A DNA stretch of 33,791 nucleotides from a virus. The DNA lies in the IMG/VR virus record IMGVR_UViG_3300037245_000492, positions 1 to 33,791 of that record, one strand, 5' to 3'. Under the pieces are notes generated by a model. The model did no database searches. It saw nothing but the letters and a program-made list of their open reading frames with translations, and was not told where the DNA came from. Shown in pieces: positions 2,798 to 33,044 of the stretch; the first letter of the stretch is position 1, and each line of letters begins with the position of its first letter. Made by a program: the position numbers and the translations under genes.

Positions 2798-2815
2798 TGT
2801 GTGTATTTTTAATTA

Positions 2816-10289: not shown

Positions 10290-10577
10290 TTATTTGTTTT
10301 CTCTTATATATTTCATAAATATATCCTTAGCATTATCTCTTGCGTCATCGCCAGGTGCAATTCCTGCGCCTCTCTCGCTCGGTTCATAAGCACCTTCAAA
10401 AAAAGCAGTTTCAATTTCTTCAAATAATGCATCTATCTTTTCTTCTTCCTCTATATCTTTATAGTACTCTTCGAGTGCAAAATCGTACCCTTCCCAATTA
10501 TCAACACCTCCACCTTCTAGCGCTAATAGTTTTAACTCTGCCGCTTCTAATTCTTTAATTCTTTCTTTAGTTATCAT
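10290..10577 (-). CDS. Acidic conserved phage protein (95 aa)
   Basis: The 95-residue, strongly acidic protein starts MITKERIKELEAAELKLLAL and contains GGVDNWEGYDFALEEYYKD, then EGAYEPSERGAG. The combination GGVDNWxxYxxAL and EPSERGAG recurs in small proteins of phages and prophages from diverse bacteria, function unknown. It sits upstream of the possible DNA-binding protein and Rad52-like gene in the same run. Confidence 0.65.
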   Translation of the reverse strand: MITKERIKELEAAELKLLALEGGGVDNWEGYDFALEEYYKDIEEEEKIDALFEEIETAFFEGAYEPSERGAGIAPGDDARDNAKDIFMKYIRENK

Positions 10578-18311: not shown

Positions 18312-18746
18312 TTAATTCCAGTTTATTACGTTAGTAGAATCTTTTAACTTATCTTCTTCTGTCACTTCGGGTATTGTAATAGTTTTTAAATACTCCTTAA
18401 AATTACCCTCTGCATTTACTGATAATTGTCTGTATCTGCTTATTTTTCTACTTAACTTCTCGTCTGCCATATCGTCAAAAACAGGATCAAAGCTTAAAAA
18501 GTTAACCGCTGAAAAGAAGACTAAAATATCTACTAAATAATCTGTGTATATTACTAGATAGTCACCTGTTAAATCGTCGTTTTTATAATCCTCTAACATC
18601 TTATCGTACAGGGGTACACCTAACACGCGTCTTAAATTAGATATTTGCGCGTTATAAATATGTTGTTTTAATTTATCAGCGTCAATATTTCCACTTAATG
18701 CCGTAAGCGTCGGTATGTCTTTTTCTGTTAAAAATAATGTTACCAT
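18312..18746 (-). CDS. Head-tail connector-like protein (DUF6712-like, 144 aa)
   Basis: The protein starts MVTLFLTEKDIPTLTALSGN and contains LKQHIYNAQISNLRRVLGVP and LYDKMLEDYKND, an arrangement of helices seen in DUF6712-type phage proteins and in gp6-like connector proteins. It follows the portal-like gene with a 7-nt overlap and precedes the fibre gene. It would bridge the portal and tail. The family call is from recall and the functional call from context. Confidence 0.55.
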   Translation of the reverse strand: MVTLFLTEKDIPTLTALSGNIDADKLKQHIYNAQISNLRRVLGVPLYDKMLEDYKNDDLTGDYLVIYTDYLVDILVFFSAVNFLSFDPVFDDMADEKLSRKISRYRQLSVNAEGNFKEYLKTITIPEVTEEDKLKDSTNVINWN

Positions 18747-19960
18747 TTCATGTATTTTTTAAATAGTTGAAATTTGCTTTCTTCTTCCGTTATTGCTTCG
18801 GGTGTTTTTTCCTCTTCTTCTAATTTCTCTTCTTCAAAATCTTGGAACTCTAATTTTACCGCAGGATCAATTAATTTAATAACCTCCATTATCCCGTTGG
18901 TTATAATTAAGCGCATAGGGTTGATATGACGACGGTATAAAGAATTTGTAGCTACTTCTATTTCGTCAGCATTTGAGCTAAACCCGCCGCCTGTATTTGA
19001 TCCTGAGAATAGTATAGGTGGTGCCGAATGTGCTACTATTAATTTTCGTTCTGCTTCCTCTGCGTAAAACACATTTTGCTGATTAAGTTCAGGCGGCGAA
19101 ACTCTATCTACTACTACTGCCTCCTCTGGAGTGTCATTAAACGCAACTATAACTCTTGCTTGATTGTCAGTACCTACAACTTTTTTACGTACTACCTTGG
19201 CTTGTGACTTCGCCTCTAAATCGTCATGTATTCTACCATTATTATAATTGATAACAGTAATATCTGACATTGCGTTTTTGAAATGATTGATACCCGCGTT
19301 TCCTAGTTCACCCTCGACTTGTGCCCAAGGTATGCCACTTATGTAATCCGGTACAGGAAAAAACGGTTCTGCAGTTGGTCGTTTAACTACTAGTATTTCT
19401 AAGTTCTCTTCTTTATATTGTCCTGTGAATTTAGGGTATAATTTAGGTATGTAAGTTCCTTTTTTAGTCCAATCGTAAGAGTGCCAATACCCTACTATTT
19501 CGACTGTTTCCATATCGTACTTTACTCCTAGTTTCCAAATAGGGATATACTCCATTCTTAACGGTTCTCTGTCAATTTCTGAACTATTCCATATAACCTG
19601 CAACGCATAGCCTCCGTGCGTCTTGTAATCTTGCACCGCTAAGGCTATGTCCGCGTCGCTTATGTATTGGTTTATCTTTAAATCGCTAACTTTCGATACA
19701 TTTTTTAGTCCTTCTCCGTAAATATAGTTAGTAAAAGCGTTAATTATACTTTGATTTGTCGGTGAATCGTCGTATGCATCCTGATAAATCAAGAAATTAT
19801 TGTTATTAGGACCGTTCAAAACGTAATTTTTACCCTGTTGTGGCTTGACATCTATCGGTTGAAACTTAGAAAACGTTTGTTTCTCACCTTTAAACACGTG
19901 TACTTGGCTATTTTTATTGTTTGTAGTCGAATTTGACATTTGATTGGCTGTTATATTCAT
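18740..19960 (-). CDS. Portal protein (putative, 406 aa)
   Basis: The region PNNNNFLIYQDAYDDSPTNQ and SIINAFTNYIYGEGL (about 51-85) matches the start of many phage portals (N-x-x-Y-x-x-x-Y-x-x-S-P-x-x-x-x-I-I-x-G-x-G-L). The C-terminal part, SAPPILFSGSNTGGGFSSNA then NSLYRRHINPMRLIITNGIM, is the helical stem and crown layout of portals. Portals form the dodecameric DNA entry ring. The gene lies after the capsid gene, not after terminase. The extreme C-terminus is Glu-rich. The start overlaps the previous gene by 47 nt; a second Met at residue 8 is an alternative start. Confidence 0.72.
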   Translation of the reverse strand: MNITANQMSNSTTNNKNSQVHVFKGEKQTFSKFQPIDVKPQQGKNYVLNGPNNNNFLIYQDAYDDSPTNQSIINAFTNYIYGEGLKNVSKVSDLKINQYISDADIALAVQDYKTHGGYALQVIWNSSEIDREPLRMEYIPIWKLGVKYDMETVEIVGYWHSYDWTKKGTYIPKLYPKFTGQYKEENLEILVVKRPTAEPFFPVPDYISGIPWAQVEGELGNAGINHFKNAMSDITVINYNNGRIHDDLEAKSQAKVVRKKVVGTDNQARVIVAFNDTPEEAVVVDRVSPPELNQQNVFYAEEAERKLIVAHSAPPILFSGSNTGGGFSSNADEIEVATNSLYRRHINPMRLIITNGIMEVIKLIDPAVKLEFQDFEEEKLEEEEKTPEAITEEESKFQLFKKYMKW

Positions 19961-20273
19961 AATTCTGTATGCTTGTACCTGATTCTAAGATTAAAACATT
20001 ACCTCTAAACACTGTTTCTGCTCCTTTTTTAATCTCAATCTCGTATTTCTGTCTAGACTCGAACTCTGTAGGCTGTGAATCTAAAGTTATTACGTATGTT
20101 TTGTTTGATATGTTGGTAGGTGATTGAGTTATTAACGGGTTTATTACTACACCGTCTCCTGTAGACATTTCTAACCTCATTTCTAACGTTAAATTGTCAG
20201 TAACAAGTAAGTCAATACGTGATATAAAGTTAATCGTTAAAGTTTCTCCTAAGAATAGTACTTTCATTTGCAA
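19914..20273 (-). CDS. Hypothetical structural protein (119 aa)
   Basis: The 119-residue protein is beta-rich: MQMKVLFLGETLTINFISR, then a middle with Ser/Thr and Pro, then RQKYEIEIKKGAETVFRGNV. It looks like an Ig- or beta-sandwich-type domain. It lies between the terminator at 20286-20309 and the portal-like gene and overlaps the latter by 47 nt, so it is likely part of the virion or its assembly. No family is recognised. Confidence 0.55.
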   Translation of the reverse strand: MQMKVLFLGETLTINFISRIDLLVTDNLTLEMRLEMSTGDGVVINPLITQSPTNISNKTYVITLDSQPTEFESRQKYEIEIKKGAETVFRGNVLILESGTSIQNYEYNSQSNVKFDYKQ

Positions 20274-20285
20274 AAAATTTAGTTT

Positions 20286-20309
20286 AAAAAAGCCGCCATT
20301 ATAGCGGCT
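20286..20309 (-). terminator. Rho-independent terminator
   Basis: On the minus strand AGCCGC pairs with GCGGCT (6 bp, all GC-rich) around a TATAATG loop and is followed by six T (20291-20286). It lies after the 179-aa structural gene and before the next gene, and would limit transcription into the portal region. Confidence 0.82.
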
Positions 20310-20334
20310 CTCACATTTCCTTAATCAAATTCGT

Positions 20335-20874
20335 TTAAACTATAATAGCTGCTGCATAATCTACTAATCCTGCTGCGTCTAATAAGTATGATCTACTAAA
20401 TTCACCCTCTAAAGTTTGGATCGTGGCTGTGAATCCGTTTAAGTCTCCACCTTGTCCACCTGTTTGATCGTCTACTGTAATTGCTTCCGCTCCACATTGG
20501 CTACCACACGCTCTAATTGTACCGTCTTTCATTTCTAAATAAAAGACAAATAAACCTTTCATTAATTCTTTTATCATTGCTGCGGTGTCTAAATCTTCAC
20601 CGTTAGCAACGTTAAATATACAAGGTATATTCCCTGTTATACCTACACTTCTGTTGTCGCCTCCACTAATACCGTTTTCGATATAATTAGTAGTTGTGTT
20701 TTTTAGCTCTAATCTAGCTACAGATAACGCACCACTAGGTATTACGGCAACACCTGTCACGGTTGTTACTACCTTATCTAAACTATCAAAAGGCGCTATT
20801 CCTACCGCTAATACCCCAGGGAAATCTGAATTTCCTGATAACGGTCTAGGAGCTGATAATGTTACACTTCCCAT
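20335..20874 (-). CDS. Probable structural protein (tail tube- or head-decoration-like, 179 aa)
   Basis: The 179-residue protein begins MGSVTLSAPRPLSGNSDFPG and has many Gly, Ser, Thr and Asp residues, including AITVDDQTGGQGGDLNGFTA and TIQTLEGEFSRSYLLD. The composition and the position right after the major capsid gene fit an abundant virion protein, either a tail-tube or a decoration protein. Terminators flank it on both sides (20895-20918 and 20286-20309), consistent with a separately adjusted high-abundance transcript. No diagnostic motif is visible. Confidence 0.55.
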   Translation of the reverse strand: MGSVTLSAPRPLSGNSDFPGVLAVGIAPFDSLDKVVTTVTGVAVIPSGALSVARLELKNTTTNYIENGISGGDNRSVGITGNIPCIFNVANGEDLDTAAMIKELMKGLFVFYLEMKDGTIRACGSQCGAEAITVDDQTGGQGGDLNGFTATIQTLEGEFSRSYLLDAAGLVDYAAAIIV

Positions 20875-20894
20875 TTTTTATATATGTTTTAAAT

Positions 20895-20918
20895 AAAGGG
20901 TCACGTTAGCAACCCTTT
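20895..20918 (-). terminator. Hairpin terminator or attenuator after capsid gene
   Basis: AAAGGGT pairs with ACCCTTT over 7 bp around a 10-nt loop, 12 nt after the major capsid stop. On the minus strand it is followed by ATTTAAAAC, a poor T run, so readthrough is likely and it may also act by stabilising the capsid mRNA end. Confidence 0.55.
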
Positions 20919-20929
20919 GTTAATAATTT

Positions 20930-21955
20930 CTATCCTCCGTATAATACGTTAGTAGCCTGTCTTGATATATGCACACTCCAAGCGTTAATATTTCTAAAGA
21001 ATTTAACATCTGAACCGTTAGCATATTCTCCTACTTCCATTGCGTTATCGTCACTTTCTAAATCCATGTTAAGCGCAAGTGTTTTCTTAGGTGCTCCCAT
21101 TACTATATCTTCTGGTAACTCTACAAAATTAACCTCGATACCATTGTAGGATAATTTACCTCCTTCGTCTAAGAAGTTTTTATTTGTAGTTGCTCCTACC
21201 GCGTTGTTGGCAATTTTCATAAACGCTTTATGTGATAACGGAGCGTTTAAGATAAATGGAAACTCAGTACTATCTCTTTCTACTACAGGAATACCTAAAT
21301 AAATCTTAGCGTATTCTGCTGCGATATTAGAAGATGTTACAGTAGTTCCTGCTACTTTCAAATACTCACCTAATCCCGCTACTTTAGTTGCTCTAAACGC
21401 GTTGTAAATCATTACCGCAAACCATCCGTCTCGTAACGTAACGTCTAATGCTGCAACAATTGCTTGTGTAGCTGCTGAGATACTTCCTTGTCCTGCTCCT
21501 GGAGTTAATGCGGCAATAGCTGCTTTTGTTGCGGTTGTGATACCACCCCATCTTTGGGTTTTAGTAGTGTGCGCTACTCTTTTCCCTAATTGGTCTGCTG
21601 CTAATTGCATGAATCTTGAACTATCAATATTAGCTGCTCCTGCTGCCATATCGTCAGCAAACGGAGTATCTCTTAAAGTGTCCTGTAAGATGTCAATTTT
21701 AAACTCACCTTTTACATGTAAGATTTGATAGTCAAATAAAACAAAACTACCGTCAGCTGTTAACGCTTGACCTGTATAAAGCTGCTCTGTTACTGCGGTC
21801 GATGTTTCTGTTTTTGTAACTCCGTGTTTTGAACCTGTGTTAAGTTCAATAATTCCGTTTGCAATTGATGGATCAACATATAGTTGTTCAACTGCGATTT
21901 CTGCGATTTGCTTACCGCGTACTGATTCTTTACCTGTGTAATCTAATCCTGGCAT
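20930..21955 (-). CDS. Major capsid protein
   Basis: This 341-residue protein follows the protease/scaffold gene and starts MPGLDYTGKESVRGKQIAEI. It is rich in Ala, Gly and Thr and contains FVLFDYQILHVKGEFKIDIL, FAVMIYNAFRATKVAGLGEY, a long beta-rich middle and GKLSYNGIEVNFVELPEDIV near the C-terminus. Length, composition and neighbours fit an HK97-fold major capsid protein, though the N-terminal delta region is short or absent, so the fused scaffold in the protease gene may replace it. It is followed by a hairpin at 20895-20918. Confidence 0.78.
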   Translation of the reverse strand: MPGLDYTGKESVRGKQIAEIAVEQLYVDPSIANGIIELNTGSKHGVTKTETSTAVTEQLYTGQALTADGSFVLFDYQILHVKGEFKIDILQDTLRDTPFADDMAAGAANIDSSRFMQLAADQLGKRVAHTTKTQRWGGITTATKAAIAALTPGAGQGSISAATQAIVAALDVTLRDGWFAVMIYNAFRATKVAGLGEYLKVAGTTVTSSNIAAEYAKIYLGIPVVERDSTEFPFILNAPLSHKAFMKIANNAVGATTNKNFLDEGGKLSYNGIEVNFVELPEDIVMGAPKKTLALNMDLESDDNAMEVGEYANGSDVKFFRNINAWSVHISRQATNVLYGG

Positions 21956-21958
21956 AAC

Positions 21959-22195
21959 TTATTTATTTAATATTTTTAATTCTTTTACTAACCACTCTAT
22001 TTGGTCTTCTGAAATTTTACCTTTACAATATTCTGAAATTCCTTTTTTAGTTGCTTTTCTTGCATCTTCAAAAGCCTCGTATGTAACACCTTCACTAAAC
22101 GGATTTAAAAACCCTGATTTAATTTCTTTTGCGTTTCTTGCTTCTTGTTCTTTTAACAACTCTTTCGGTGTTTTAATTTTTACTTCTTTTTTCAT
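21959..22195 (-). CDS. Small protein between protease and capsid genes (78 aa)
   Basis: The 78-residue charged protein contains LNPFSEGVTYEAFEDARKAT followed by KKGISEYCKGKISEDQIEWL. Short proteins with NPFxxGVTYxxF ... VxEYCKGKLxxxQIxWL are found between protease and capsid genes of Bacteroidota phages. They are probably head-assembly factors, but this is unproven. It lies three to four bases from both neighbours. Confidence 0.65.
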   Translation of the reverse strand: MKKEVKIKTPKELLKEQEARNAKEIKSGFLNPFSEGVTYEAFEDARKATKKGISEYCKGKISEDQIEWLVKELKILNK

Positions 22196-22199
22196 CTTA

Positions 22200-23165
22200 T
22201 TAGTTTAGGTGTTGTTTTTTAAATTTCTCTAACTCTGGACTAACCTCTTTAAATTTCTCTGGTTTTGGTAATAAAGGAATTGGCTTAGCTCCTGCTATTT
22301 GAGTCTTGTATTTTTCAATATCTGACTTCATAGTTTCCAATTCTTCGCCTTCCTTAACTTTGTCAGCTTCTAGTTCCGCGATAGTCTGTTTAAGAGAAAT
22401 AACTTCATCCATTAAAGCCTTTTCGCGCTCTGTTGGTTCTTCTTCTCCTTCTTCGTGCTCTGCTTGCTCCTCAACTTTCACTTCTTCTTTCACTTCTTCT
22501 GCTTGTTCTTCAACTTTTACTTCCTCTTCTTTTTCTTCTTCTTTGTCTTCCGCCATTATTTCATGCTTAGAAAACAAAGCCTTCAAAGATTCCATAAACG
22601 TAGGTTCTTTTTTTTCTTTGGATTTTTCCATTTTTTCTGTTTTATTTTGTTCGTGTTCTTTATATTCTATATTTACCATTTCAACGGATAAACCGTCAAG
22701 TCCTTTATTCTTTACATGCTTCCATACCTCGTCGTTATCCACTTTATAAGCTTGAATCCAAGTTCCAACCTCTGAGTTAAAACCTAAAACATTAGACTTA
22801 TCATTGTCTTTATCAGCTACTTGCCAACATTCAAAAGGAAACACCCCGTTTATATTACCCATTTCTGAGTGATTAATATTAGTGTTTGCGCTACCATTAT
22901 TGCGAGCGTAATTAATCATCATTTCAGTGATTGTCTCCGATGTATAAAATACGTTCGCCTCTTCTCCGTTAATATCTTTTCTGTAAATCATCTTATTAGG
23001 AATCATTGCAGGCGCATAAATAATGCGTTTTTCTTCATCTGCGAAAAGCTGTGGTTTCTCTTTTGAAAAATGCAAAAGGTTTTCCTCTATTGCAGGGTCT
23101 TTAACTAGTGATACCTTGAACACCCCCTTACCGCCTTTCTGCATTTTTATCTCATATACTTTCAT
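22200..23165 (-). CDS. XkdF-like prohead protease fused to acidic scaffold-like tail
   Basis: Residues 1-165 resemble XkdF-type prohead serine proteases: RIIYAPAMIPNKMIYRKD (48-65), NVFYTSETI (71-79), NHSEMGNINGVFPFECWQV with H99, and GLDGLSVE with S160. The remainder is a highly acidic, repetitive coiled coil (EEVKVEEQAEEVKEEVKV near 215-235) ending in KPEKFKEVSPELEKFKKQH. It probably acts as an internal scaffold that is cleaved away. The protease matures the capsid shell. Such protease-scaffold fusions are known in tailed phages. The order protease, small protein, capsid supports the call. Confidence 0.78.
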   Translation of the reverse strand: MKVYEIKMQKGGKGVFKVSLVKDPAIEENLLHFSKEKPQLFADEEKRIIYAPAMIPNKMIYRKDINGEEANVFYTSETITEMMINYARNNGSANTNINHSEMGNINGVFPFECWQVADKDNDKSNVLGFNSEVGTWIQAYKVDNDEVWKHVKNKGLDGLSVEMVNIEYKEHEQNKTEKMEKSKEKKEPTFMESLKALFSKHEIMAEDKEEEKEEEVKVEEQAEEVKEEVKVEEQAEHEEGEEEPTEREKALMDEVISLKQTIAELEADKVKEGEELETMKSDIEKYKTQIAGAKPIPLLPKPEKFKEVSPELEKFKKQHLN

Positions 23166-23205
23166 TCTGTAACTTTTTTATACGCTTTTACTTACAATAT
23201 ATTTG

Positions 23206-23213
23206 TAAAGATA
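23206..23213 (-). promoter_or_regulatory. Possible -7 promoter box (TATCTTTA)
   Basis: In the 67-nt gap between the tape measure and protease genes the minus strand reads TATCTTTA, one base off TAnnTTTG, about 40 nt upstream of the protease ATG. No TTG lies at the -33 distance, so it is weak, but it is placed where a separate head-gene promoter would make sense. Confidence 0.4.
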
Positions 23214-23232
23214 CAATTTTTATTTCGATTTG

Positions 23233-24963
23233 TTAGAAACTATTACCCTCAATCTTCTTTCTGTCAAGTTCTTGCCCTGTTGTAACCTCAGATGTAACCA
23301 CAAATGCTTGTATTGGTTCCTGTTCGTTTGTGTTATCTGCTATTGTGGTTGCGATTTGGTTTTCACTTGACGCTTGAAAGTCTACTTGTGGTGCTGCGCT
23401 TGTCGGTGCTGATGCTGTAGACACTGAACCCGCTGATACGCTACCACCTCCTGAAAGGATTTTCTTTGCTTGCGCTACATTTGATGCAACCGTAGCAATA
23501 GAACCTACTAAACTTGCTGCTGTAACTAAAGGTCCTACTACTGCGGCTGCGGGTCCTGCTATTTTAGCCGCCTCACTACCTGCATTTAAAGCCATAGGTA
23601 TAGCTGTACTTATAGCTACCGCACTGTCAGCGGCTATCTGGGTAAGTGCTAAACCTTTCTTTATCGCTTGACTTGCTTTACTTTTTTTAAGTCCTAAAGC
23701 CTCTAATGAAGATATAAGGTTCTGCCCGTTTTGCGTGATACTTAAAATTGCATCTTGTATGTTTTGTTCGGTTTGTATTTTTTCCGCTGCGGCTTGTTCT
23801 TCTGCTTCCTTCTTTGCGTCTGCTACTATCTTATCGTCTTCCGCCTGTTCTGCTGCTAACATTCGTCTAACTTCTCTTCGTCTTCTTCCTTGCTCTATTA
23901 TCTTATCGTCTTCGTCTATTGCTTTTTGTTCTGCGAGCGCAATAGCTTCTTTGTTGCGTTTTGCTTCTTCTTCTCTTTCTTTCTTTATATTCTTTGCGTT
24001 TTCTTCTTGTATCTTTTGCTTATCCTTTTCTCTTTGTAAAAATGCGTCGTGTAGTCCTTTTTTGCGCGCTTCTTCTTCACCGTCTAAAGTCTTGTTAAAG
24101 TCTGCAACCTTACGTCTGTTTTCTGAACTTAATCTCTCTAGTTCTATAACTGCAATTCTTGCTTCTGCTTCTGCGTCTAAATCTTCTGCTCCTGAATCGC
24201 TTTGTGCATTTAGTGCTAGTATTGCCTCTAGTTTCTTCTTTGCGTTTTTTAGTTCTGCATCTGTTTGTTTCTTTTCTGCCGCCTCTACTTCTTCTAATGC
24301 TTTTTTCTTTTCTTGATATGATGCTGTTGTACTTGTTAATATTCTTTCACTTTCTGCTAAGTCTCTATCTAGTTCGGCTCTAGCTACTCCTAAATCCCTC
24401 ATAGCGTCCGTAACCTCTTGCAAGTCTTTAGTTGCTTGCATAGCTATTTTAAATTCCTTTGCTACTTCATCTCCGAAACCGTCTATTGCTTCTTTCCCTA
24501 CCTCTACGGCTCCTTTAAAATCACCACTAAAAAACTTACCTATTGCCTCACCAACTAATAAAACACGATCCCTTAGTACGTCAATAGTTGCAGAAATACC
24601 CGCCATTACTCTATCAACTTGTTCGGCTCCTGCTTTAGTACTAGTAAATGCTTTTGTTAATGTAATTAACGCTAATGCAATAGCAGCTATTACCAATCCT
24701 ACGGGATTAGCTACGATCGCCCACATTGTTTTAATTAGTCCTTTAAACCCTTTAATCGCATCACCGATACCACCGCCTAAATCTTCTAAGCTTTGTTTCT
24801 GTCCTTTGGTTGCTTTAGCATTTGACTTTTTAGCTTTTGTACTTTCTTCCGTGGCTTCCGTAGACTCGTCTATTTTTTTAGTAGTCTTATCAATCTTTTT
24901 ACTCGTCTCGTCCGCGTTTGTGTCGTACGTGATTTTAATCTTCTCTTCTCTATTGTCTGCCAT
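23233..24963 (-). CDS. Tape measure protein
   Basis: The 576-residue protein has the composition of a tail tape measure: a hydrophobic segment WAIVANPVGLVIAAIALALI (81-100), a long coiled coil with many Lys, Glu and Ala (about 200-400), and a second hydrophobic Ala-rich block (about 440-500, with IPMALNAGSEAAKIAGPAAA). The C-terminus, FVVTSEVTTGQELDRKKIEG, matches the ending of tape measures in Bacteroidota phages. It sets tail length and helps DNA delivery. By the usual rough rule of 1.5 angstrom per residue the tail would be near 85-90 nm, but that is only an estimate. Confidence 0.8.
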   Translation of the reverse strand: MADNREEKIKITYDTNADETSKKIDKTTKKIDESTEATEESTKAKKSNAKATKGQKQSLEDLGGGIGDAIKGFKGLIKTMWAIVANPVGLVIAAIALALITLTKAFTSTKAGAEQVDRVMAGISATIDVLRDRVLLVGEAIGKFFSGDFKGAVEVGKEAIDGFGDEVAKEFKIAMQATKDLQEVTDAMRDLGVARAELDRDLAESERILTSTTASYQEKKKALEEVEAAEKKQTDAELKNAKKKLEAILALNAQSDSGAEDLDAEAEARIAVIELERLSSENRRKVADFNKTLDGEEEARKKGLHDAFLQREKDKQKIQEENAKNIKKEREEEAKRNKEAIALAEQKAIDEDDKIIEQGRRRREVRRMLAAEQAEDDKIVADAKKEAEEQAAAEKIQTEQNIQDAILSITQNGQNLISSLEALGLKKSKASQAIKKGLALTQIAADSAVAISTAIPMALNAGSEAAKIAGPAAAVVGPLVTAASLVGSIATVASNVAQAKKILSGGGSVSAGSVSTASAPTSAAPQVDFQASSENQIATTIADNTNEQEPIQAFVVTSEVTTGQELDRKKIEGNSF

Positions 24964-24964
24964 C

Positions 24965-27238
24965 TTAATAGTTTAATAGCGTTAATTTGGTTTTACCCGT
25001 TGTCTGGTCTATAGTACTGTCTACTATACTAAATTTATCCTCTTGTATAATTATGTCGTTTTGCAATCTGAACCCCGTAGGAGTCTGTCCGTCGCCTTGA
25101 TCCGTGGTACTTTCGTTTAAGTATATTTCACTCGCGGGTAATGTAAGATTAAATTTTTGCGTCAATACATTAGGGTCTAGTAACCTAGTTATTTGATTAA
25201 TATACCCATTTGAAAACAGGTTGTTTGGATAACTTACTGAATTCTCAACTAATACCGAGAACCCTAAAGAGTCACCGTCTTTACTAAATGGCTGTATTTC
25301 TAAATGTGTTATTAACTCACTTACTATTAATCCAAATGTAGCGTGCTCGTTTTGAACTCCTAAAGACCTTCCTAATGACTTAATGCCGTGGAAATAAAAG
25401 ATCGTCAACTCGTCGTAGTTTGGTTCATATCTTGTTTCTCCTGTTTCTATTGGTTCACCGTCTGAATCGTCGAACCCGTAAAACGTTGTTATATTCGTTC
25501 CTACTAAATTAACAGGAGGTATAAGGCTGAAATTAGTTTCTACCGTGAAAGTTTTAGGTTCGTCTGGCGGTGTATCAGGGAATTTAACTTGCCCGTATTC
25601 GATACCTGCTGCTGTTTTGAAATCTACCGCGCTTCTGTATTTGCTATCTTGGTGTTTAAAGTTGTAAACATTATTGTCGCTTGGCACCTCTTTTGTTTTA
25701 GAGCTGTTATCTAAGTATCTCGTATAATCTAACGTGCGTTTTGAATACACTTGTTTAGTGCTGTTTATATCTTCTGGAGTTAACCAATGTAAAATATTAT
25801 CGTTTGGCGATGTATCAAATACTGAGATATTAAACATCTTGAAATAACTATTCAAAAAATCAAATACCTTTAACTCCGGAAGTGATTTAATAATATCAAT
25901 AGACGAACTGTTACCGCTTTCTGAATTAGCATTACTAAGACTCTCATACGAGTAAGTAGCTCTATCCTCTCTATTAAAGAAGCCTGTATTGTTATCGTCA
26001 AATGTAAAACGTATATAAATATGCATGTCTGCCCATGTGATAACTTGTTCGAATGATATTTCTGCGTAAAACTCTATTTCATCGTTTACGAAAAACACAT
26101 CACTAACCTCTATTGTGAATTCCCTGGCGTCGCTTAATGGATTTCCTATAACGTTTGTTGCTTCATTGTCCGCATCCTCACTGTTAAATGTTTTTGATAT
26201 TATTAGGCTGTCGTCGCTTTTTCTTTTTAATTTAATTGTCGCTTCAAATTTATCCTCACTAGTTATTATCCCGTTTAACCTAACTATGTATTTAAAAAAG
26301 TCGTCATAGTTACCGTCTCTTTGCTGAGGTGGGTTTCTTTTAGTTATAGTTATAGTATCGTTTAACGTATCTGTTGTGGCTACATATTTTTTAGGATCAG
26401 GTATTTTACTCTCGTTTTTATCTCTAAAGAACGCTAACGGGTTAAAGTCGTTTTTAATAACTATCAGCGAACTTTCGTTATTATTTATCTTTTCTGAATT
26501 ACAATAAATAACTAAATCTTTATACTCACTCCTTTCGTCTAGAGGCGCAATCACTTCTAAATTATACTTCTTTTTAATCAACTCGATTATAGTTGAGAAC
26601 GAAATACAAGGTCGTAACTCGCTAGAGTTTATCACATCGCTACTTCTAGGGTCTGCTGTGGATAAAAATGAAACGTTATCTAATGCATCGTTACCGTCTC
26701 TGTTCTGATCGTAAGCAAGTACTCTGTTGTTAGATATTAACGGCACAAAGTAATGTATAGGAACACCGTCTATAGTTGTGTTTTGTCCACTATTCATTAG
26801 TTGATATACACTCTTTGGTAGCCAATCCACAAGTAACTGTTCGTCTGCTAAGTCCACTATTAAATCATCACCTATCAATGTTTTTAAATTAGTCATTGTA
26901 GTAGCGAAGTTTGCCGTGAAATCTGTAGGTTTACCTAGTTTATATTTAATCGCAGTAACTTGCAAAGAACCTACTAGGTTTAATTGTCCTTCCGTATAAA
27001 CTTTTGCGCTAAACTTATTATCTGGATTTACTTTTATTACATCGGTATTACCAAAGAACCCAAGCGCGGCTATATTTTTAGGAGTCGCTTTAAATGTAAA
27101 ATCTTGTGAATACGGACTGAATATCTTAGATATGTCCTGCAGGTCTTTTGCAGTACTCTTCATTAAGATACTTTCATCCCTGTACAAATCTAATCTCCTG
27201 TATTCTAAACTGTCTACGCTTACGTATATTTCAGTCAT
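24965..27238 (-). CDS. Tail/baseplate structural protein (757 aa)
   Basis: The N-terminus contains RRLDLYRDESILMKSTAKDL and QDISKIFSPYSQDFTFKATP. A segment D-L-x-x-D-E-x-I-x-x-x-x-x-x-x-Q-D-I-S-K-x-F-x-x-x-S-Q-x-F-T is shared by large tail proteins of Bacteroidota phages. The rest is beta-rich, with no enzymatic motif. It is next to the tape measure gene (one base apart) and overlaps its upstream neighbour by one base (TAATG). The likely role is a distal tail, baseplate hub or adhesion component. Confidence 0.65.
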   Translation of the reverse strand: MTEIYVSVDSLEYRRLDLYRDESILMKSTAKDLQDISKIFSPYSQDFTFKATPKNIAALGFFGNTDVIKVNPDNKFSAKVYTEGQLNLVGSLQVTAIKYKLGKPTDFTANFATTMTNLKTLIGDDLIVDLADEQLLVDWLPKSVYQLMNSGQNTTIDGVPIHYFVPLISNNRVLAYDQNRDGNDALDNVSFLSTADPRSSDVINSSELRPCISFSTIIELIKKKYNLEVIAPLDERSEYKDLVIYCNSEKINNNESSLIVIKNDFNPLAFFRDKNESKIPDPKKYVATTDTLNDTITITKRNPPQQRDGNYDDFFKYIVRLNGIITSEDKFEATIKLKRKSDDSLIISKTFNSEDADNEATNVIGNPLSDAREFTIEVSDVFFVNDEIEFYAEISFEQVITWADMHIYIRFTFDDNNTGFFNREDRATYSYESLSNANSESGNSSSIDIIKSLPELKVFDFLNSYFKMFNISVFDTSPNDNILHWLTPEDINSTKQVYSKRTLDYTRYLDNSSKTKEVPSDNNVYNFKHQDSKYRSAVDFKTAAGIEYGQVKFPDTPPDEPKTFTVETNFSLIPPVNLVGTNITTFYGFDDSDGEPIETGETRYEPNYDELTIFYFHGIKSLGRSLGVQNEHATFGLIVSELITHLEIQPFSKDGDSLGFSVLVENSVSYPNNLFSNGYINQITRLLDPNVLTQKFNLTLPASEIYLNESTTDQGDGQTPTGFRLQNDIIIQEDKFSIVDSTIDQTTGKTKLTLLNY

Positions 27239-28422
27239 TATCTTGTATTATTAATCTTGTTACTTGTCTCTTCTAACTCGATGTTATAGTCTATTTTGAT
27301 TTTATCATTAATCATTGTCTTTAATAGGAATTCTCTATTCGCAATAGTTACGGGTATTTGCCTATGTGTTTTAAAGAATGATAAAAACTCCGCTCCTATA
27401 CTTGCCTCGTCTACTGTAATTGTTGTGTCGTCTACTGTGATAAATGTATTATCGACTGTGATACCAACCGTTGTTTCTGTCTGAACATCTCCTTTAAACT
27501 TGATTAAATACACTTTATCTGAGTACATTATTTCTTCCACAATGTCGGTCATATCCTCAGTAATGTAACCTGTGTTAACTATGTACTTTTGATTGATTTC
27601 TGTATTAACTCTAGTCTTATGATGGGTATATGTGTTGTCTATCTTTGACGCGTTCCTAAAAGCTAACGGTACGGAGTCGCCTGTTATCTGTCCTAGCGTA
27701 GTTATCTTACCGTGAGGTGTAAACATTTGGAATAATCCTAGTTTGTCAATGTATGCAATGAAGGAACTATCACGAGAACACCTCGAAAATGCTGCGGGCG
27801 GTGTAATATCCGTGACATTTATCATGTTTTCGGTAGTTATTACATTCGGATCAGCTTCTAAATTAAACGATTGCTCGATGTAATTGTGTATTTGTGGGTT
27901 GTAAAATCTGTTTACCGTTCTTTTAAACCCGCTTGCGCCGCCTCCTGTACCGTCAAACTCAAAGTTTTCAGTTTGTTCGTAGTTCCATAGATACCCAAGT
28001 GTAGCAAAATGCGTCGGTTCGTTTGTAATTACGGTTCCCGCATCGCTTGTTACTTCCTTTTGTATCTGATAGAATACTCCTTGCCCTGTTATTGCGGGGT
28101 TGGTTAGTTCATTGTATGCAAAATTTGGTTGGTCTGTGTTCTGTGCTGTCGTAGGAGCTACTAGAAACGATTTAACGAGTCCATCTATTTGCAACTGTAT
28201 GTAGTTATCGTTTACGCTTACTTGGTCTTTCTCCATTGTGTGGTTTGGTGATCCTAAAACCTTCTTTAAATCTCCGTGCCATATCCAAAGAAAAACACGA
28301 ACGCTTTTAATCGTTGTGTCTTTCGCTGCGTTCTGAATGTCTAATAATATAGGACTGTTGCAAAATGCAAAGTTTTCGTAATCTGGAAATGCTGTCCGTT
28401 CTGATGTTGGTAATGTTGCCAT
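27238..28422 (-). CDS. Tail structural protein (394 aa)
   Basis: The 394-residue beta-rich protein includes SPILLDIQNAAKDTTIKSVRV, IDGLVKSFLVAPTTAQNTDQ and a cysteine-containing AAFSRCSRDSSFIAY. Near the C-terminus three seven-residue repeats (ITVDNTF, ITVDDTT, ITVDEAS) probably form stacked strands. Position between the neck genes and the 757-aa tail protein suggests a baseplate or tail-tip role. No family is confidently recognised. Confidence 0.55.
   Translation of the reverse strand: MATLPTSERTAFPDYENFAFCNSPILLDIQNAAKDTTIKSVRVFLWIWHGDLKKVLGSPNHTMEKDQVSVNDNYIQLQIDGLVKSFLVAPTTAQNTDQPNFAYNELTNPAITGQGVFYQIQKEVTSDAGTVITNEPTHFATLGYLWNYEQTENFEFDGTGGGASGFKRTVNRFYNPQIHNYIEQSFNLEADPNVITTENMINVTDITPPAAFSRCSRDSSFIAYIDKLGLFQMFTPHGKITTLGQITGDSVPLAFRNASKIDNTYTHHKTRVNTEINQKYIVNTGYITEDMTDIVEEIMYSDKVYLIKFKGDVQTETTVGITVDNTFITVDDTTITVDEASIGAEFLSFFKTHRQIPVTIANREFLLKTMINDKIKIDYNIELEETSNKINNTR
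27407..27469. repeat. Tandem repeat, 3 x 21 bp, in tail gene
   Basis: Three imperfect 21-bp units (27407-27427, 27428-27448, 27449-27469) share an ACTGT-containing core and encode three consecutive ITVD-x3 heptapeptides in the 394-aa tail protein. The in-frame unit length allows copy-number change without frameshift. Confidence 0.7.
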
Positions 28423-28731
28423 TTATGTCTTTTTATAATCTCTGAGTAATTGATCTGTTATTTCTGTTATAATTATGTTAGTGGATTTAGGTACGTGTTT
28501 TTCTACTGCTTTTACTAATACGTCTGGGTCTTGGAATTTACCATAGAATACTTGCGCGACTGTTAGCACTGTATCGGGTTTAACTCTAAAGTTTTGCGAA
28601 TCTCTTAAACGTCCTGTGTCTACTCTAGAATTCTTTGTAGCATCATTGTGGATTTTCTCACCTAATACATTAAGCTCCTTTTTAATAATCTTGTCCGATG
28701 CAATTTTCTGTGGACTCCTACGTTTCGCCAT
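28423..28731 (-). CDS. HK97 gp10-like protein (102 aa)
   Basis: The motif DATKNSRVDTGRLRDSQNF (35-53) and the following VFYGKFQD are the signature of HK97-gp10-like tail-completion proteins (SRVDTGxLRxS ... YxxFxE). It overlaps the upstream paralogue by 14 nt. It should sit at the head-tail joint or tail end during assembly. Two members of the family in a row is unusual. Confidence 0.75.
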   Translation of the reverse strand: MAKRRSPQKIASDKIIKKELNVLGEKIHNDATKNSRVDTGRLRDSQNFRVKPDTVLTVAQVFYGKFQDPDVLVKAVEKHVPKSTNIIITEITDQLLRDYKKT

Positions 28732-29113
28732 CCTTTAATTTTTTAGCTTTCCTTAATCTACTAGCGGCTATCAGTGCTTTAATTTTATTAGTACCGCCTC
28801 GTAACGCGCTTAATATACTTGTGCGTCGTGTCGCTCTCCCTGCCCTAGTTCGTCCTACCTCAACCGTACCGCCTCCAAACTTTGTAGAAATTATTTTCCA
28901 CTCTGTACCGTTTGGCATTAACTTAATAGCATTCTTTTCTAATTGTGAATTTCCGAATTCACCGTAAAACAATTGCCTAAATATAACTACACCCCTAACG
29001 AATGTGTAAGAAATAGAACGTTTTAAGGCTCCCGTGTCGACTCGTGATGTTCTTTTACTGTCGTTAACAACGGTCTGCGCTATAGCTCTTATTTCCTTTT
29101 CTGTTAATGCCAT
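28718..29113 (-). CDS. HK97 gp10-like protein, second copy (131 aa)
   Basis: The motif DSKRTSRVDTGALKRSISY followed by FRQLFYGEFGNSQ places this in the same HK97-gp10-like family as its neighbour, though outside this motif the two sequences differ. The C-terminus is basic and Gly/Arg-rich (GGGTVEVGRTRAGRATRRTS, then RLRKAKKLKDG), unlike the neighbour. It may have diverged to another neck or tail position. It is six bases after the tail terminator-like gene. Confidence 0.72.
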   Translation of the reverse strand: MALTEKEIRAIAQTVVNDSKRTSRVDTGALKRSISYTFVRGVVIFRQLFYGEFGNSQLEKNAIKLMPNGTEWKIISTKFGGGTVEVGRTRAGRATRRTSILSALRGGTNKIKALIAASRLRKAKKLKDGET

Positions 29114-29119
29114 GTTATT

Positions 29120-29596
29120 TTAAAGTATTGCGTTACCTTTATTAAATATCGATAACTCACATGTAAATTTCCACCCGTCTAAATCTTTATTTTCTCCAAA
29201 TTTGGCAACCTTCTCTAAATCGCTAGACTCTAAAAGCTCTATAACGTCGGGGTTATTTTGTCTTCTAAGGAATGATAAGAAGTTATTAGCAATACTATGC
29301 GTCTCGTTTAAATTGTCTACTAGGTTTGTGTCTAGCTGTAACTTACTGTCGGTCTTTACGGGTCTAATGTCTCTCTGAGTCAATACAAATATCTCATACT
29401 TTAGAATTACAAAGTCGTCTGTAGGATCTGAGAACTGCAAATCTATATTTACAAGCGGGTATACATTCTCTTTGTTTTTGTCGATGTTATTTTCTCCTGC
29501 TAAATCTACTGTCTCGACTAATGTAATTGTATTAACAAGTTTATCTTTTTGAAACCTATCAATAGCGAAATTTTGTATTTTACTTACTTCGTTCAT
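29120..29596 (-). CDS. Tail terminator-like protein (158 aa)
   Basis: The protein contains VYPLVNIDLQFSDPTDD, YEIFVLTQRDIRPVKTDSKL and DTNLVDNLNETHSIANNFLS. The combination PLVNIDL ... QRDIxPVKTDSKLxxDTNLxDNLNETHSIANxF is characteristic of a conserved family in Bacteroidota phages that lies in the neck region next to gp10-like genes. By position it is the tail terminator or completion protein that caps the tail tube. The functional role is inferred from gene order. Confidence 0.65.
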   Translation of the reverse strand: MNEVSKIQNFAIDRFQKDKLVNTITLVETVDLAGENNIDKNKENVYPLVNIDLQFSDPTDDFVILKYEIFVLTQRDIRPVKTDSKLQLDTNLVDNLNETHSIANNFLSFLRRQNNPDVIELLESSDLEKVAKFGENKDLDGWKFTCELSIFNKGNAIL

Positions 29597-29609
29597 TTGT
29601 ATTTATATT

Positions 29610-29804
29610 TTAGTATTCTATCTGAAATACTATTTTTCTTTCTTTTGTGTCATATACATGGCAATTAAATCCACAATACACTTCTCTATCTTCGGACTCA
29701 ATTCTTTCTTTTGCACTTTCTAAGTCGTCAAAATCATCTGTAAAATCTAACATACCCCCTGTTGGGTAGTATTCCGAATAACAAAATAATAAAAATCTTT
29801 TCAT
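29610..29804 (-). CDS. Small hypothetical protein (64 aa)
   Basis: The 64-residue acidic protein starts MKRFLLFCYSEYYPTGGMLD and continues FTDDFDDLESAKERIESEDR. The KRFLLFxxxxYYPxGG ... DFDxLExAK pattern recurs in small phage and prophage proteins of unknown role. It starts 11 nt after the end of the frameshift extension, with the genome's TAAACTAAATATT leader directly before its ATG. Confidence 0.6.
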   Translation of the reverse strand: MKRFLLFCYSEYYPTGGMLDFTDDFDDLESAKERIESEDREVYCGFNCHVYDTKERKIVFQIEY

Positions 29805-29814
29805 AATATTTAGT

Positions 29815-30431
29815 TTATTTTATTTTCTCAATTCTTTTTTTCTCTAGTAAATACTCTGCTTTATACAAGAACAAATCTACACTCCATTCTGTGGGATCAT
29901 CTCCAAACGATATACCATCGTTGCAAAGTAAATAATTCATTTCTGCATAGCCTCCGTACTTCTGCGCGAACGCTTGACGTTCCATTGTTCCTTGTGTATT
30001 AACCCCACCGCCTCTAGGCGGAGGGTTAAATATATCAGGGTACCGTTCTTTTATTTTTCCTGTAATGTCAAAAAAAAACCTACGATATACTCACCATCTT
30101 GCAAGCCTACTTTGTTAACATCTATTCCTCCAAACTGATACCATTTCTTTTGTATGGCTAATTTAAAGAAGTTTCCAATCTCTTTACGTGTTAGGTATGT
30201 ATCAACATCTATAAACTGCCCCGCTGTCTTAAACTTGTCTTTAAGCTTGTATTTGAATACGTGATTCTTTTCTCTTTTTAAAACATTTCCGAACTCGATT
30301 AAATCAACACCGAAAAACTCTAATGTGATAGCGTTCTTTTCTAACGGCTCCTTATCTTTGATCGCGTCTATGTATTCAAAGAACTTTATATAGCTTATAT
30401 CGTTTCTATTTTTTAAGCTGTTGGTACTCAT
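29815..30431 (-). CDS. Tail assembly chaperone, -1 frameshift (GT-like) product, about 205 aa
   Basis: If ribosomes slip back one base on the run of nine U (30078-30070) after decoding GGU UUU UUU, they enter a frame that is open for 85 codons to TAA at 29815. The added part reads FDITGKIKERYPDIFNPPPR, then a Gly linker, and ends GGYAEMNYLLCNDGISFG and EWSVDLFLYKAEYLLEKKRI. It has no good start of its own, and codon use and composition are protein-like. The long product would be the GT-like chaperone that contacts the tape measure, as in lambda gpG/gpGT. A GC-rich hairpin (30005-30024) follows about 45 nt downstream. Confidence 0.7.
30051..30431 (-). CDS. Tail assembly chaperone, zero-frame (G-like) product (126 aa)
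   Basis: The 126-residue product starts MSTNSLKNRNDISYIKFFEY and contains YKLKDKFKTAGQFIDVDTYL, a pattern (K-x-x-x-T-x-G-Q-F-I-D-x-x-x-Y) seen in tail assembly chaperones of Bacteroidota phages. It ends at TAA (30053-30051) shortly after the U9 run. It lies upstream of the tape measure, although other tail genes intervene. Zero-frame G-like protein is expected in excess over the frameshifted form. Its start overlaps the preceding small gene by 26 nt. Confidence 0.66.
   Translation of the reverse strand: MSTNSLKNRNDISYIKFFEYIDAIKDKEPLEKNAITLEFFGVDLIEFGNVLKREKNHVFKYKLKDKFKTAGQFIDVDTYLTRKEIGNFFKLAIQKKWYQFGGIDVNKVGLQDGEYIVGFFLTLQEK
30070..30078 (-). promoter_or_regulatory. Slippery site: run of nine U for -1 frameshifting
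   Basis: The minus strand reads GGTTTTTTTTTGAC. In the zero frame this is GGT TTT TTT TTG, containing the heptamer T-TTT-TTT that fits X-XXY-YYZ. A downstream GC-rich hairpin (30005-30024, CCGCC pairing with GGCGG around TAGA) stands out in an AT-rich region, though its 45-nt spacing is longer than usual for a stimulator. Confidence 0.65.
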
Positions 30432-30633
30432 AGATTGTTTTTAGTTTAAGCGGTGTGTAATCTTCGTTCGGGAATAGCTCTTTAAATGTTTCCTTGCTTC
30501 GTAGCTCGTCTTTCTTTAACTCTCGATAGTCTTGTCTAAGATATGGTACAAAGTGCTTTAAAAGCTTTAATTTGTTTTTAGTCTTTTTGCTTAGTTCTTG
30601 ATCGGGTTTTGATTCTGTTTTCTTTTTTGTCAT
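30406..30633 (-). CDS. Hypothetical basic protein (75 aa)
   Basis: The 75-residue lysine-rich protein starts MTKKKTESKPDQELSKKTKN and contains HFVPYLRQDYRELKKDELRS before a C-terminal EYQQLKK. It is helical and strongly basic at the N-terminus. No family is recognised. It overlaps the chaperone start by 26 nt and so is probably coupled to it. Confidence 0.58.
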   Translation of the reverse strand: MTKKKTESKPDQELSKKTKNKLKLLKHFVPYLRQDYRELKKDELRSKETFKELFPNEDYTPLKLKTIYEYQQLKK

Positions 30634-30645
30634 GATGTTATTTTT

Positions 30646-30933
30646 TTATCTGAACCATAGTTCTAAAGCTCTCAAATCTACTGCGCTCATTTGTTTTGGC
30701 TCGTATTGAATAACTCCTTTAATCGCTCTTATCTGCGCTTGTATATCTTCCATTGTGTTGAAGCATTCGATACGACTACCATCATTAAACTCAACAAACA
30801 TACCTGTCTTTGCTTTTATAGATGCGGTAACGTCCCCAAAGTTTTCTATTATCTTTTCTTTTCTAATGTCTTTAATGTCTTCGTACTTGTGTAGGCACCC
30901 TACTTCTCCTTCTTTGTTTTTTAGTTCTATCAT
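30646..30933 (-). CDS. Hypothetical protein (95 aa)
   Basis: The 95-residue protein begins MIELKNKEGEVGCLHKYEDI and contains GMFVEFNDGSRIECFNTMED then IRAIKGVIQYEPKQMSAVDL. The middle looks like a small beta domain. The ATG is preceded by TAAACTAAATATT, the most common leader in this genome. No family is recognised. Confidence 0.6.
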   Translation of the reverse strand: MIELKNKEGEVGCLHKYEDIKDIRKEKIIENFGDVTASIKAKTGMFVEFNDGSRIECFNTMEDIQAQIRAIKGVIQYEPKQMSAVDLRALELWFR

Positions 30934-30943
30934 AATATTTAGT

Positions 30944-31099
30944 TTAAGTTGTTAGTAATAATATTATAGTTAATGTACCAAAAGTAATTGGCGCAATCTT
31001 TGATATTTTCTCTAACTTGTCATTTTTGAAATCTACGAAATGATAAGTCAACGATGTTATATAAAATAACACTAGTATTACTGTTGTGATTGTATTCAT
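30944..31099 (-). CDS. Small two-pass membrane protein (51 aa)
   Basis: ATG at 31099 opens 51 codons ending in TAA at 30944. Two hydrophobic segments, TTVILVLFYITSLTYHFV (5-22) and APITFGTLTIILLLT (36-50), flank a charged loop (DFKNDKLEKISK). It lies between terminase and the tail genes, far from the lysis cassette. The function is unknown; superinfection exclusion is a possibility only. Confidence 0.6.
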   Translation of the reverse strand: MNTITTVILVLFYITSLTYHFVDFKNDKLEKISKIAPITFGTLTIILLLTT

Positions 31100-31111
31100 A
31101 ATATATTTAGT

Positions 31112-32503
31112 TTAAGTTACTTGTGATTTCTTTCTGCTTAGTAAGTTTCGTTCTATAGAATAACATGTTAAATCTACATGCTCGTCGTGTTTTCCGTTTG
31201 GGAATGTAGCAATCTGTTTTAAAAATGCATCGTTCCAATATCCTCTAACTAGAAAAACTCTACCTCCTTCAATAGATGGACTCGATGCCCTTGCCATTTC
31301 TACCTTACTCATATTTACAAATGGTGTTCTTATCTCTGTAGCGTTTATACTTGTCGCTGCTATTAATAACTGTTTTAAAGACGAGCCCGACGCTTTAGGT
31401 TCAATCAATGTCAGTTTTATATCAAGTCCTGATGCTTCAATATGTGGAGATACGAACTTTAAAAGCTCTGGCATTTCTAAATATTTGTCTATTGAACTGT
31501 AAATATACAAATTATTTTTGTAAACGCCAGATATTTGTAGTCCTGTTGGGTCATTTTTTGTTAACTTAGTATACGCACCGTCAATAAATAACTCCCACTT
31601 AACAGCCTGCGGAACTTCTTCTTTACTTATTATACTAAACCAATCCTTGCGCCATTCTCCTCCCTCGTCAGGTGCAGGAGTCTGCATGTATTGACCTGCA
31701 AATGTATAACGGTCTGCTTGTCTAATAGATTCTAATTGCTCGAATGTGTGCTTATGTGGGTATAACGGATTGTTCTCTTCATCTAATGCGGGTAAACATA
31801 AATGCGTCCATTTCTCACCGCTTCCGCCTGCTAATAGAAACCCGCTTAGATCGTCCTCGTGTAGTCGCTGCATGATAACGATTATAGGTGTGTCGTCTGT
31901 GTTTATTCTTGAGCGTATAGTATTATTATATCGGTTGTTTACTTTGTTCCTCTCAACGTCTGAAAATGCGTCGTCTGGTTTTAACGGGTCATCAATTAAT
32001 ATTGCTCCTGCGAATCCCTCAACTCCATCAACACCTGCTCCAAATCCTGTAATTGCTCCACCTGCTGCGGTTGCGTAAACTCCTCCTCCTTGTTCGTTAA
32101 ACCATTTCTTTTTAGATTGCGCGTCTTTCTTTAATTCCATTTGCCAAAGTGCCTGGAACGCCTCGCTTTGGATATACTCTTTTGTTTGGCTTGAATTATC
32201 TAAGGCTAGCATGTCGCTGTATGATAATTCTAAGAACTTACATACAGGTTGTTTAGCTAAACACCATGCAATAAATATCTTTATAACTAATTCAGTCTTT
32301 CCGTAACGAGGTGGCATGTTTATAATACCTCTTGTAATTTCACCACGATAAACAGCCTCTAAAAATAGAGCTATCTCTTCAAAGTGTTTAGATAATATAA
32401 ACTTTCGGTTGTGGTTTTCTTTATAGATGTATCGAGCGAAGAACAAAAGACTGTTTTCGCATTTGTATTTTAAGACTTGTTTATATTTAATAGTCTCCTT
32501 CAA
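31112..32503 (-). CDS. terL: Terminase large subunit
   Basis: The 463-residue packaging motor has Walker A MPPRYGKTE (63-71), Walker B AILIDD (167-172), the coupling motif VIMQRLHEDD (209-218) and a C-terminal RNase H-like nuclease domain with D308 in LFIDGAYT, E369 in LIEPKASGSS and HDEHVDLTCYS near 440-450. It pumps DNA into the prohead and cuts the concatemer. It overlaps the small-subunit gene by 17 nt. The length and motif order are complete, so the gene looks functional. Confidence 0.94.
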   Translation of the reverse strand: MKETIKYKQVLKYKCENSLLFFARYIYKENHNRKFILSKHFEEIALFLEAVYRGEITRGIINMPPRYGKTELVIKIFIAWCLAKQPVCKFLELSYSDMLALDNSSQTKEYIQSEAFQALWQMELKKDAQSKKKWFNEQGGGVYATAAGGAITGFGAGVDGVEGFAGAILIDDPLKPDDAFSDVERNKVNNRYNNTIRSRINTDDTPIIVIMQRLHEDDLSGFLLAGGSGEKWTHLCLPALDEENNPLYPHKHTFEQLESIRQADRYTFAGQYMQTPAPDEGGEWRKDWFSIISKEEVPQAVKWELFIDGAYTKLTKNDPTGLQISGVYKNNLYIYSSIDKYLEMPELLKFVSPHIEASGLDIKLTLIEPKASGSSLKQLLIAATSINATEIRTPFVNMSKVEMARASSPSIEGGRVFLVRGYWNDAFLKQIATFPNGKHDEHVDLTCYSIERNLLSRKKSQVT

Positions 32504-33044
32504 TGGATTTATTTAGTTTGTCTGCTTCTGCTTGAGATAGTTCTCCTGCGTCTATGTTTATATTAGTTTGTTTTACATCTGTCTTGTCTGTAAGCCCTAA
32601 ATCCCTTGCTATAATATTAGGGTTTAAGAATCCAGACGCAGCACCTTCAAACTTTTGATTGTAGATAATTTGCCTTACACGTGTTGTGACTCCGATAAAA
32701 TCTTTACGCTCATCATATAAACCAAAGCAATCCATACTAATATCTATGAAGTTACAAAGTCCATGAAGCGTAAAAGCTCTCATCTTTGGAAGCTGTGCAA
32801 TATCGTAAGGAATAGTAGTTTTAGATTTAACATTCTTTGTCTTTCCTTCTTCATCTTTAGTTGGTACGCTTACTTCTTCTGTTCTGTTTCCTTTTACAAT
32901 AACTGATTCTAGTAATGGGTTTTCAATACACCACTCAAAATATTCATTGCACGCAGAAACCAAGTCTTCGGGGGTTTCAAATATTTTATCCCTTCCGTCC
33001 TTGGTTCTTAACTTGTAGTATTCATTTCCTATTGGTGCTGCCAT
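32487..33044 (-). CDS. terS: Terminase small subunit (putative)
   Basis: The 185-residue protein contains FETPEDLVSACNEYFEWCIE and AFTLHGLCNFIDISMDCFGL, the latter shaped like a DNA-binding helix pair, then RVRQIIYNQKFEGAASGFLN and IIARDLGLTDKTDVKQ. This layout (E-T-P-E-D-L ... FxxxHGLCxFIDIS ... NPNIIARxLGL) is that of phage small terminases that recognise packaging sites. It directly precedes and overlaps the large subunit. A possible -7 box lies about 20 nt upstream. Confidence 0.85.
   Translation of the reverse strand: MAAPIGNEYYKLRTKDGRDKIFETPEDLVSACNEYFEWCIENPLLESVIVKGNRTEEVSVPTKDEEGKTKNVKSKTTIPYDIAQLPKMRAFTLHGLCNFIDISMDCFGLYDERKDFIGVTTRVRQIIYNQKFEGAASGFLNPNIIARDLGLTDKTDVKQTNINIDAGELSQAEADKLNKSIEGDY

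Follow-up and report, generated by a model that had tools for sequence, protein, structure and literature searches.

The late region of the virus recorded as IMGVR_UViG_3300037245_000492 raises the question of whether two overlapping reading frames, here called A and B and meeting at a run of nine U's, are a broken gene, two separate genes, or one gene read in two ways and, in the last case, how the second frame is reached and what its products do. The window, i.e., the whole stretch of 33,791 nucleotides that was analysed, corresponds to one IMG/VR virus record, and the features of A/B are all on its minus strand, a point that the initial annotation left unstated. ORF A, the short form made in the 0 frame, spans 30431-30051 and encodes 126 aa, the last six codons lying beyond the U run. 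The run itself (30078-30070, GG-U9-GA) contains an in-register U_UUU_UUU and is read in the 0 frame as GTA GGT TTT TTT TTG ACA, with GGT TTT TTT TTG at 30080-30069. The stop codon of A (30053-30051) comes six codons past the two full Phe codons of U9, whereas the -1 frame (ORF B, 30078-29815) is open from the run to a stop codon at 29817-29815, adding 85 codons to A. The joined A-B would be 205 aa long, with a predicted junction peptide of ..EYIVGFFFDITGK... The initial annotation had described a 126-aa ORF ending shortly past GGT TTT TTT TTG, which these coordinates bear out, and its figures of 85 open codons in the -1 frame and a 205-aa fusion were both reproduced.

No A/T run of nine or more other than the U9 of A/B exists in the window, and when 22 other ORFs of the window were read in the -1 frame, none of 4,899 positions had an open stretch of 85 codons. 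The claim that B had no suitable start needs qualification, as in-frame ATGs exist at 29985-29983, from which a 56-aa ORF would be made, and at 29940. However, neither is conserved in relatives and both are downstream of the conserved IKxxYxxIxNPP with which B begins; B has no conserved start of its own, and an independent start is therefore unlikely.

Relatives of A and B

Neither a direct tblastn search of phages with A-B nor scanning IMG/VR for the pattern yielded relatives, which were instead reached via neighbouring genes. A wider group was joined by the terminase, then by A, and a close group was joined by a 757-aa tail protein and later also found by B itself. The wider group comprised 91 loci, of which at least six duplicate a contig already included, leaving about 85 distinct contigs with A directly after the terminase. 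B was in the -1 frame in all 91 loci, with a junction run of U9 in 79 loci, U10 in 11 and U8 in one (L028, position 3883, the sole wider-family locus of this kind). Thus, the pure U9 that the initial annotation took to be unusual is not so at the family level, where U8-U10 is the rule, and the conservation of the run in relatives, which it had proposed as a check, was found as a pure U run in about 85 distinct related contigs. The same A/B arrangement with U9 was present in three Flavobacteriaceae genomes, and U9 was kept at 50% GC in the prophage region of Flavobacterium sp. MFBS3-15. Two cultured Nonlabens phages, P12024L (gp40 and gp41) and P12024S (gp38 and gp39), belong to the same family (phrog_32199), with U9 in A at the A/B junction, B at -1 and the pair directly after the terminase, but the pairs are annotated as two unrelated hypothetical proteins with the frameshift unrecorded. 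The pairs, joined by U9, are at 7926-8620 of locus L090 (P12024L) and 2926-3620 of locus L091 (P12024S).

Within the close group, the frames of A and B differed by -1 in 15 contigs and formed one ORF in 10. The junction of the 15 frameshifted relatives carried no homopolymer and consisted only of U5 or UCUUUCU (CUU UUU or UCU UUC), i.e., U_UUY, and the joined length at the junction was identical in frameshifted and one-ORF close relatives. The initial annotation had held that relatives lacking both the slippery run and the overlapping frame would speak against frameshifting. Formally, the 10 are such relatives, yet A and B make up one ORF in them, and the full-length ones are of the same joined length, so that they support the fusion product rather than refute it.

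A third group consisted of one-ORF proteins of 259–301 aa in Duneviridae, Polaribacter phage Leef and a Microcystis phage. The one-ORF proteins of Duneviridae and Helgolandviridae (gp10 of Flavobacterium phage 23T, gp17 of phage laban6-1, gp05 of Cellulophaga phage Ingeline and gp02 of Leef), all from siphophages, matched the joined A-B of the wider family over its whole length but are made without a frameshift, and the Ingeline gene differs further in following an adaptor gene, three genes ahead of the tape measure. Profile comparisons, each of a single pair, aligned the joined products across the A/B junction for the wider and third groups (probability 97.9%, E = 4.9e-13) and for the wider and close groups (probability 95.7%, E = 8.8e-9), while the direct comparison of the close and third groups was not significant. 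As judged from these profiles, homology extends over A and B across phrog_32199 and the Duneviridae relatives.

Shortened or interrupted forms were also seen. In loci L190-L193 (about 2810-3270), a one-ORF form of about 150 aa, comprising the last part of A plus B, lies directly after the terminase. In Flavobacterium phage 6H, the one-ORF A-B gene is interrupted where a short patch, about 40 bases long, departs from the near-identical 23T (L195 about 10310-10430, L196 4981-5200), and the annotated 6H protein AGN89393 has 191 aa instead of 293 aa.

Only the fused A-B ORF is present in ten close relatives and the Duneviridae, and for this reason the short product seems dispensable there. The window is the only close-group member with U9 and branches outside the other members, on a long branch with weak support (83/51). 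Most simply, frameshifting on a U run like that of the wider group would have given way to U_UUY or to fusion in the other close-group members. The Duneviridae show that one ORF is workable too, and over the family as a whole the change may have run either way.

Selection on the two frames

Across 550 kb of wider-family loci, 90 of 93 coding-strand runs of at least nine T's fell at the A/B junction (repeated contigs being counted twice). U9 with identical flanks occurred in 66 IMG/VR contigs, and no U8 or U10 with identical flanks was found there. Among close pairs, 60–77% of substitutions before the run were at the wobble position of the 0 frame, those in the first 30 nt past the run were at both wobble positions, and 58–83% of those farther on were at the wobble position of the -1 frame. 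The same switch from 0-frame to -1-frame wobble occurred in three close-family groups without a homopolymer. Dual coding of the entire overlap was rejected, as constraint on both frames together extends no farther than roughly 30 nt past the run. This comparative codon signature shows that translation covers both A and B, that B is read at -1 relative to A and that the switch is at the run. Since the arrangement, the U run and both frames are conserved and the constraint switches at the run, a frameshifted A/A-B pair is well supported, and from these comparisons a -1 frameshift of A/B is very probable.

Two other accounts of the split frames have to be set against this evidence. The true gene could be a single ORF, as in loci L005-L007, split in the window by a sequencing or assembly error or by a recent inactivating indel in the homopolymer. 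Single ORFs do occur in some close relatives, nine identical bases in a row are a well-known source of such errors, and the U9 of the window virus rests on one assembled record; however, about 85 contigs, the two cultured phages among them, and three bacterial genomes share U9 with the -1 arrangement, no variant run lengths were seen between the same flanks, and the selective frame switch sits at the run, which makes such an artefact or lesion very improbable. Alternatively, translation of B as a protein of its own could begin at an internal ATG, which is how GenBank annotates gp41 of P12024L, and the ATG at 29985 is indeed in frame for 56 aa. This ATG is, however, not conserved, the conservation of B and its -1 codon signature already begin at the run, upstream of the ATG, and the same two parts are joined in the one-ORF relatives; a separately initiated B is hardly credible.

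Ribosomal or transcriptional slippage

By the proposed mechanism, normal decoding would give A and a -1 slip on U9 would give A-B, the two products having identical N-termini. The slip would be made by tRNA-Phe moving one base back on U_UUU_UUU, a step common to homopolymer and U_UUY relatives. In-register shift sites of the kind expected for programmed -1 ribosomal frameshifting, X_XXY_YYZ or Z_ZZN, were present at the frame switch as U_UUU_UUU in 49 rows and as U_UUY in 15 relatives, and Z_ZZN tetramers of the types U_UUU and U_UUC are shift-prone in Escherichia coli (PMC4066793). On the 49-row tree, the seven positions of the in-register U_UUU_UUU had no changes, compared with two to six at flanking positions; a TTT at +14 to +16 was equally invariant, and the invariance of the heptamer may come in part from dual coding. 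Neither a conserved downstream RNA structure (mean z +0.39/+0.21) nor an upstream Shine-Dalgarno-like stimulator (SD-like sequence in 4 of 48) was found as a family feature, and downstream structure in the window alone had a z of -2.58 over 100 nt. Frameshift stimulators are common, not obligatory. Hosts from the phylum to which the Flavobacteriia belong make little use of Shine-Dalgarno pairing, so frameshift stimulation must differ there.

The alternative is that RNA polymerase slips on the nine T's, adding one U or dropping two, and that some transcripts thereby carry A-B in frame. A/B resembles genes expressed by transcriptional slippage (Thermus dnaX, Shigella spa13 and some IS elements) in that a coding homopolymer joins two frames. 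A run of at least nine A/T was present in the window and in 90 of the 91 wider-family loci, and nine A/T is an efficient length for slippage by bacterial RNA polymerase in vivo (PMC5009743). This length was kept in all wider-family loci but one despite at least four changes of register relative to the codons on the tree, and where a U was lost after the heptamer an extra U upstream nearly always brought the run back to nine. The failure to find ribosomal stimulators in the family also fits slippage by the polymerase, and U7 is under-represented in E. coli in all frames, for which slippage has been named as a possible cause (PMC4066793). On the other hand, the compensation of run length may stem from only one or two events, locus L028 has only U8, and the core that shows no change at all coincides with the in-register heptamer, a point on which A/B differs from the transcriptional slippage genes. 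In addition, the homopolymer is lacking in the 15 close relatives that keep the -1 arrangement on U5 or UCUUUCU, where polymerase slippage is unexpected. Because these relatives keep U_UUY at the same place, a ribosomal slip is the most likely mechanism; ribosomal rather than polymerase slippage is probable from the sequence comparisons, and transcriptional slippage as the route to A-B is unlikely. Slippage by the polymerase on the nine T's may nevertheless contribute to the ribosomal slip or replace it. A doubtful extension is that one family uses three interchangeable decoding solutions: the polymerase would slip on T9 in the wider family and the window, the ribosome would slip on U_UUY in the 15 close relatives, and the fused genes would be the third. 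If the polymerase case were true, a tail-assembly-type gene would be recoded in RNA and not on the ribosome. The occurrence of homopolymeric, short-motif and fused forms within one family makes both the choice between ribosome and polymerase and the need for a short product directly testable.

The fused ORF of locus L006 (4360-4395) carries an in-frame A_AAA_AAC at the junction, where slipping by -1 would end translation within a few codons and leave a truncated, A-like product. A reverse arrangement of the dnaX type from this A_AAA_AAC was considered and dropped, as it was absent in L005, L007 and L009.

Gene neighbourhood and possible role of A and A-B

The late genes of the window, all on the minus strand, are arranged in the order terminase small and large subunits, two small ORFs, A/B, a 64-aa ORF, a 158-aa ORF, two HK97-gp10-like genes, proteins of 394 and 757 aa, and the tape measure, past which lie an XkdF-type protease, the presumed capsid and the portal. 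The large terminase subunit (31112-32503, minus strand; phrog_38, E = 5.6e-87) is the upstream neighbour in nearly all relatives. Downstream neighbours are the two tandem HK97-gp10/Neck1-like genes (28718-29113 and 28423-28731, minus strand; PF04883 and phrog_5), and the tape measure protein (23233-24963, minus strand; phrog_1538, E = 2.1e-6) is separated from A/B by six ORFs. The initial annotation had placed the pair before the neck genes and not directly before the tape measure, and A/B is indeed located between the terminase and neck-type genes, several genes away from the tape measure.

The frameshifted pair, the start of the tail module and the long-tailed phages that carry it are chaperone-like points. 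Phage lambda makes a short gpG and an extended gpGT by frameshifting (PMC5009743). Like gpG/gpGT and their equivalents, A/B would yield two N-terminally identical products by -1 frameshift, the slip in the window falling close to where the short ORF stops, and the gene is part of the tail module of a long-tailed phage, ahead of the tape measure. The presence of a tape measure gene in the window points to a long tail, and the relatives Leef and Ingeline are siphoviral by TEM (PMC8776804). A/B differs from gpG/gpGT in having no detectable sequence homology and at most weak fold similarity to such chaperones, in shifting on a pure U run or on U_UUY, in lying beside terminase and neck genes rather than next to the tape measure, and in forming one fused ORF in several relatives. 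By this analogy, A in many copies and A-B in few would be the counterparts of gpG and gpGT and act as chaperones of the tape measure and tail tube while the tail is assembled, B corresponding to the T domain.

Comparison of A/B with Pfam and PHROGs revealed no match to tail assembly chaperones, PDB sequences gave no credible chaperone match, and an AlphaFold model of a wider-family A (pLDDT 78.8) matched no PDB structure. Among the named fold neighbours of the same model in BFVD, just two were tail-related, both of them weak: the tail assembly chaperone of ctCpR1 (E = 0.2) and the tape-measure chaperone of phage Seuss (E = 0.24); a model of the fused L006 protein (pLDDT 45) was not used. The gene order expected of G/GT (major tail protein, chaperone, tape measure) was not seen, as no tape measure or identified tail-tube gene adjoins A/B. 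A/B is therefore likened to G/GT and not filed as a member of the family, because it has no match to a chaperone family or solved structure, only weak fold matches and six ORFs between it and the tape measure. Of the tail assembly chaperone made by -1 frameshifting that the initial annotation proposed, the frameshift stands, given the conservation of arrangement, U run and both frames, while the name chaperone is plausible by analogy.

The same neighbourhood suggests that the pair could instead be a head-tail connector (neck) protein made in two lengths, since A/B lies between the terminase (an adaptor gene in Ingeline) and gp10-like neck genes, away from the tape measure, and matches no chaperone family. 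Nevertheless, a small C-terminal extension on A, as in the A/A-B layout, is typical of gpG/gpGT, and the only names among tail-related fold neighbours are, though weak, those of chaperones. No neck protein is known to us to arise by a frameshift. A neck protein is accordingly a tentative and rather improbable assignment, and the analogy with lambda leans towards a tail-assembly-chaperone role of A and A-B. As a whole, the explanation we consider likely is that A/B is a gene of a Flavobacteriia siphophage that makes A and A-B by a -1 slip on U9, the two acting in a G/GT-like manner.

A literature search, to which most subscription journals were beyond reach, found no published account of the A/B family as frameshifted. 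The results would add, for phages of marine and freshwater Flavobacteriia, a large family of late genes whose frameshift has gone unannotated and which public annotation splits, as in gp40 and gp41 of P12024L. Two further features of the late region of the window are its unusual module order (18740-33044), in which the terminase is followed by tail genes and the tape measure and these by the protease, presumed capsid and portal, and the overlap between the tandem HK97-gp10/Neck1-like genes (28423-29113), which possibly arose by duplication.
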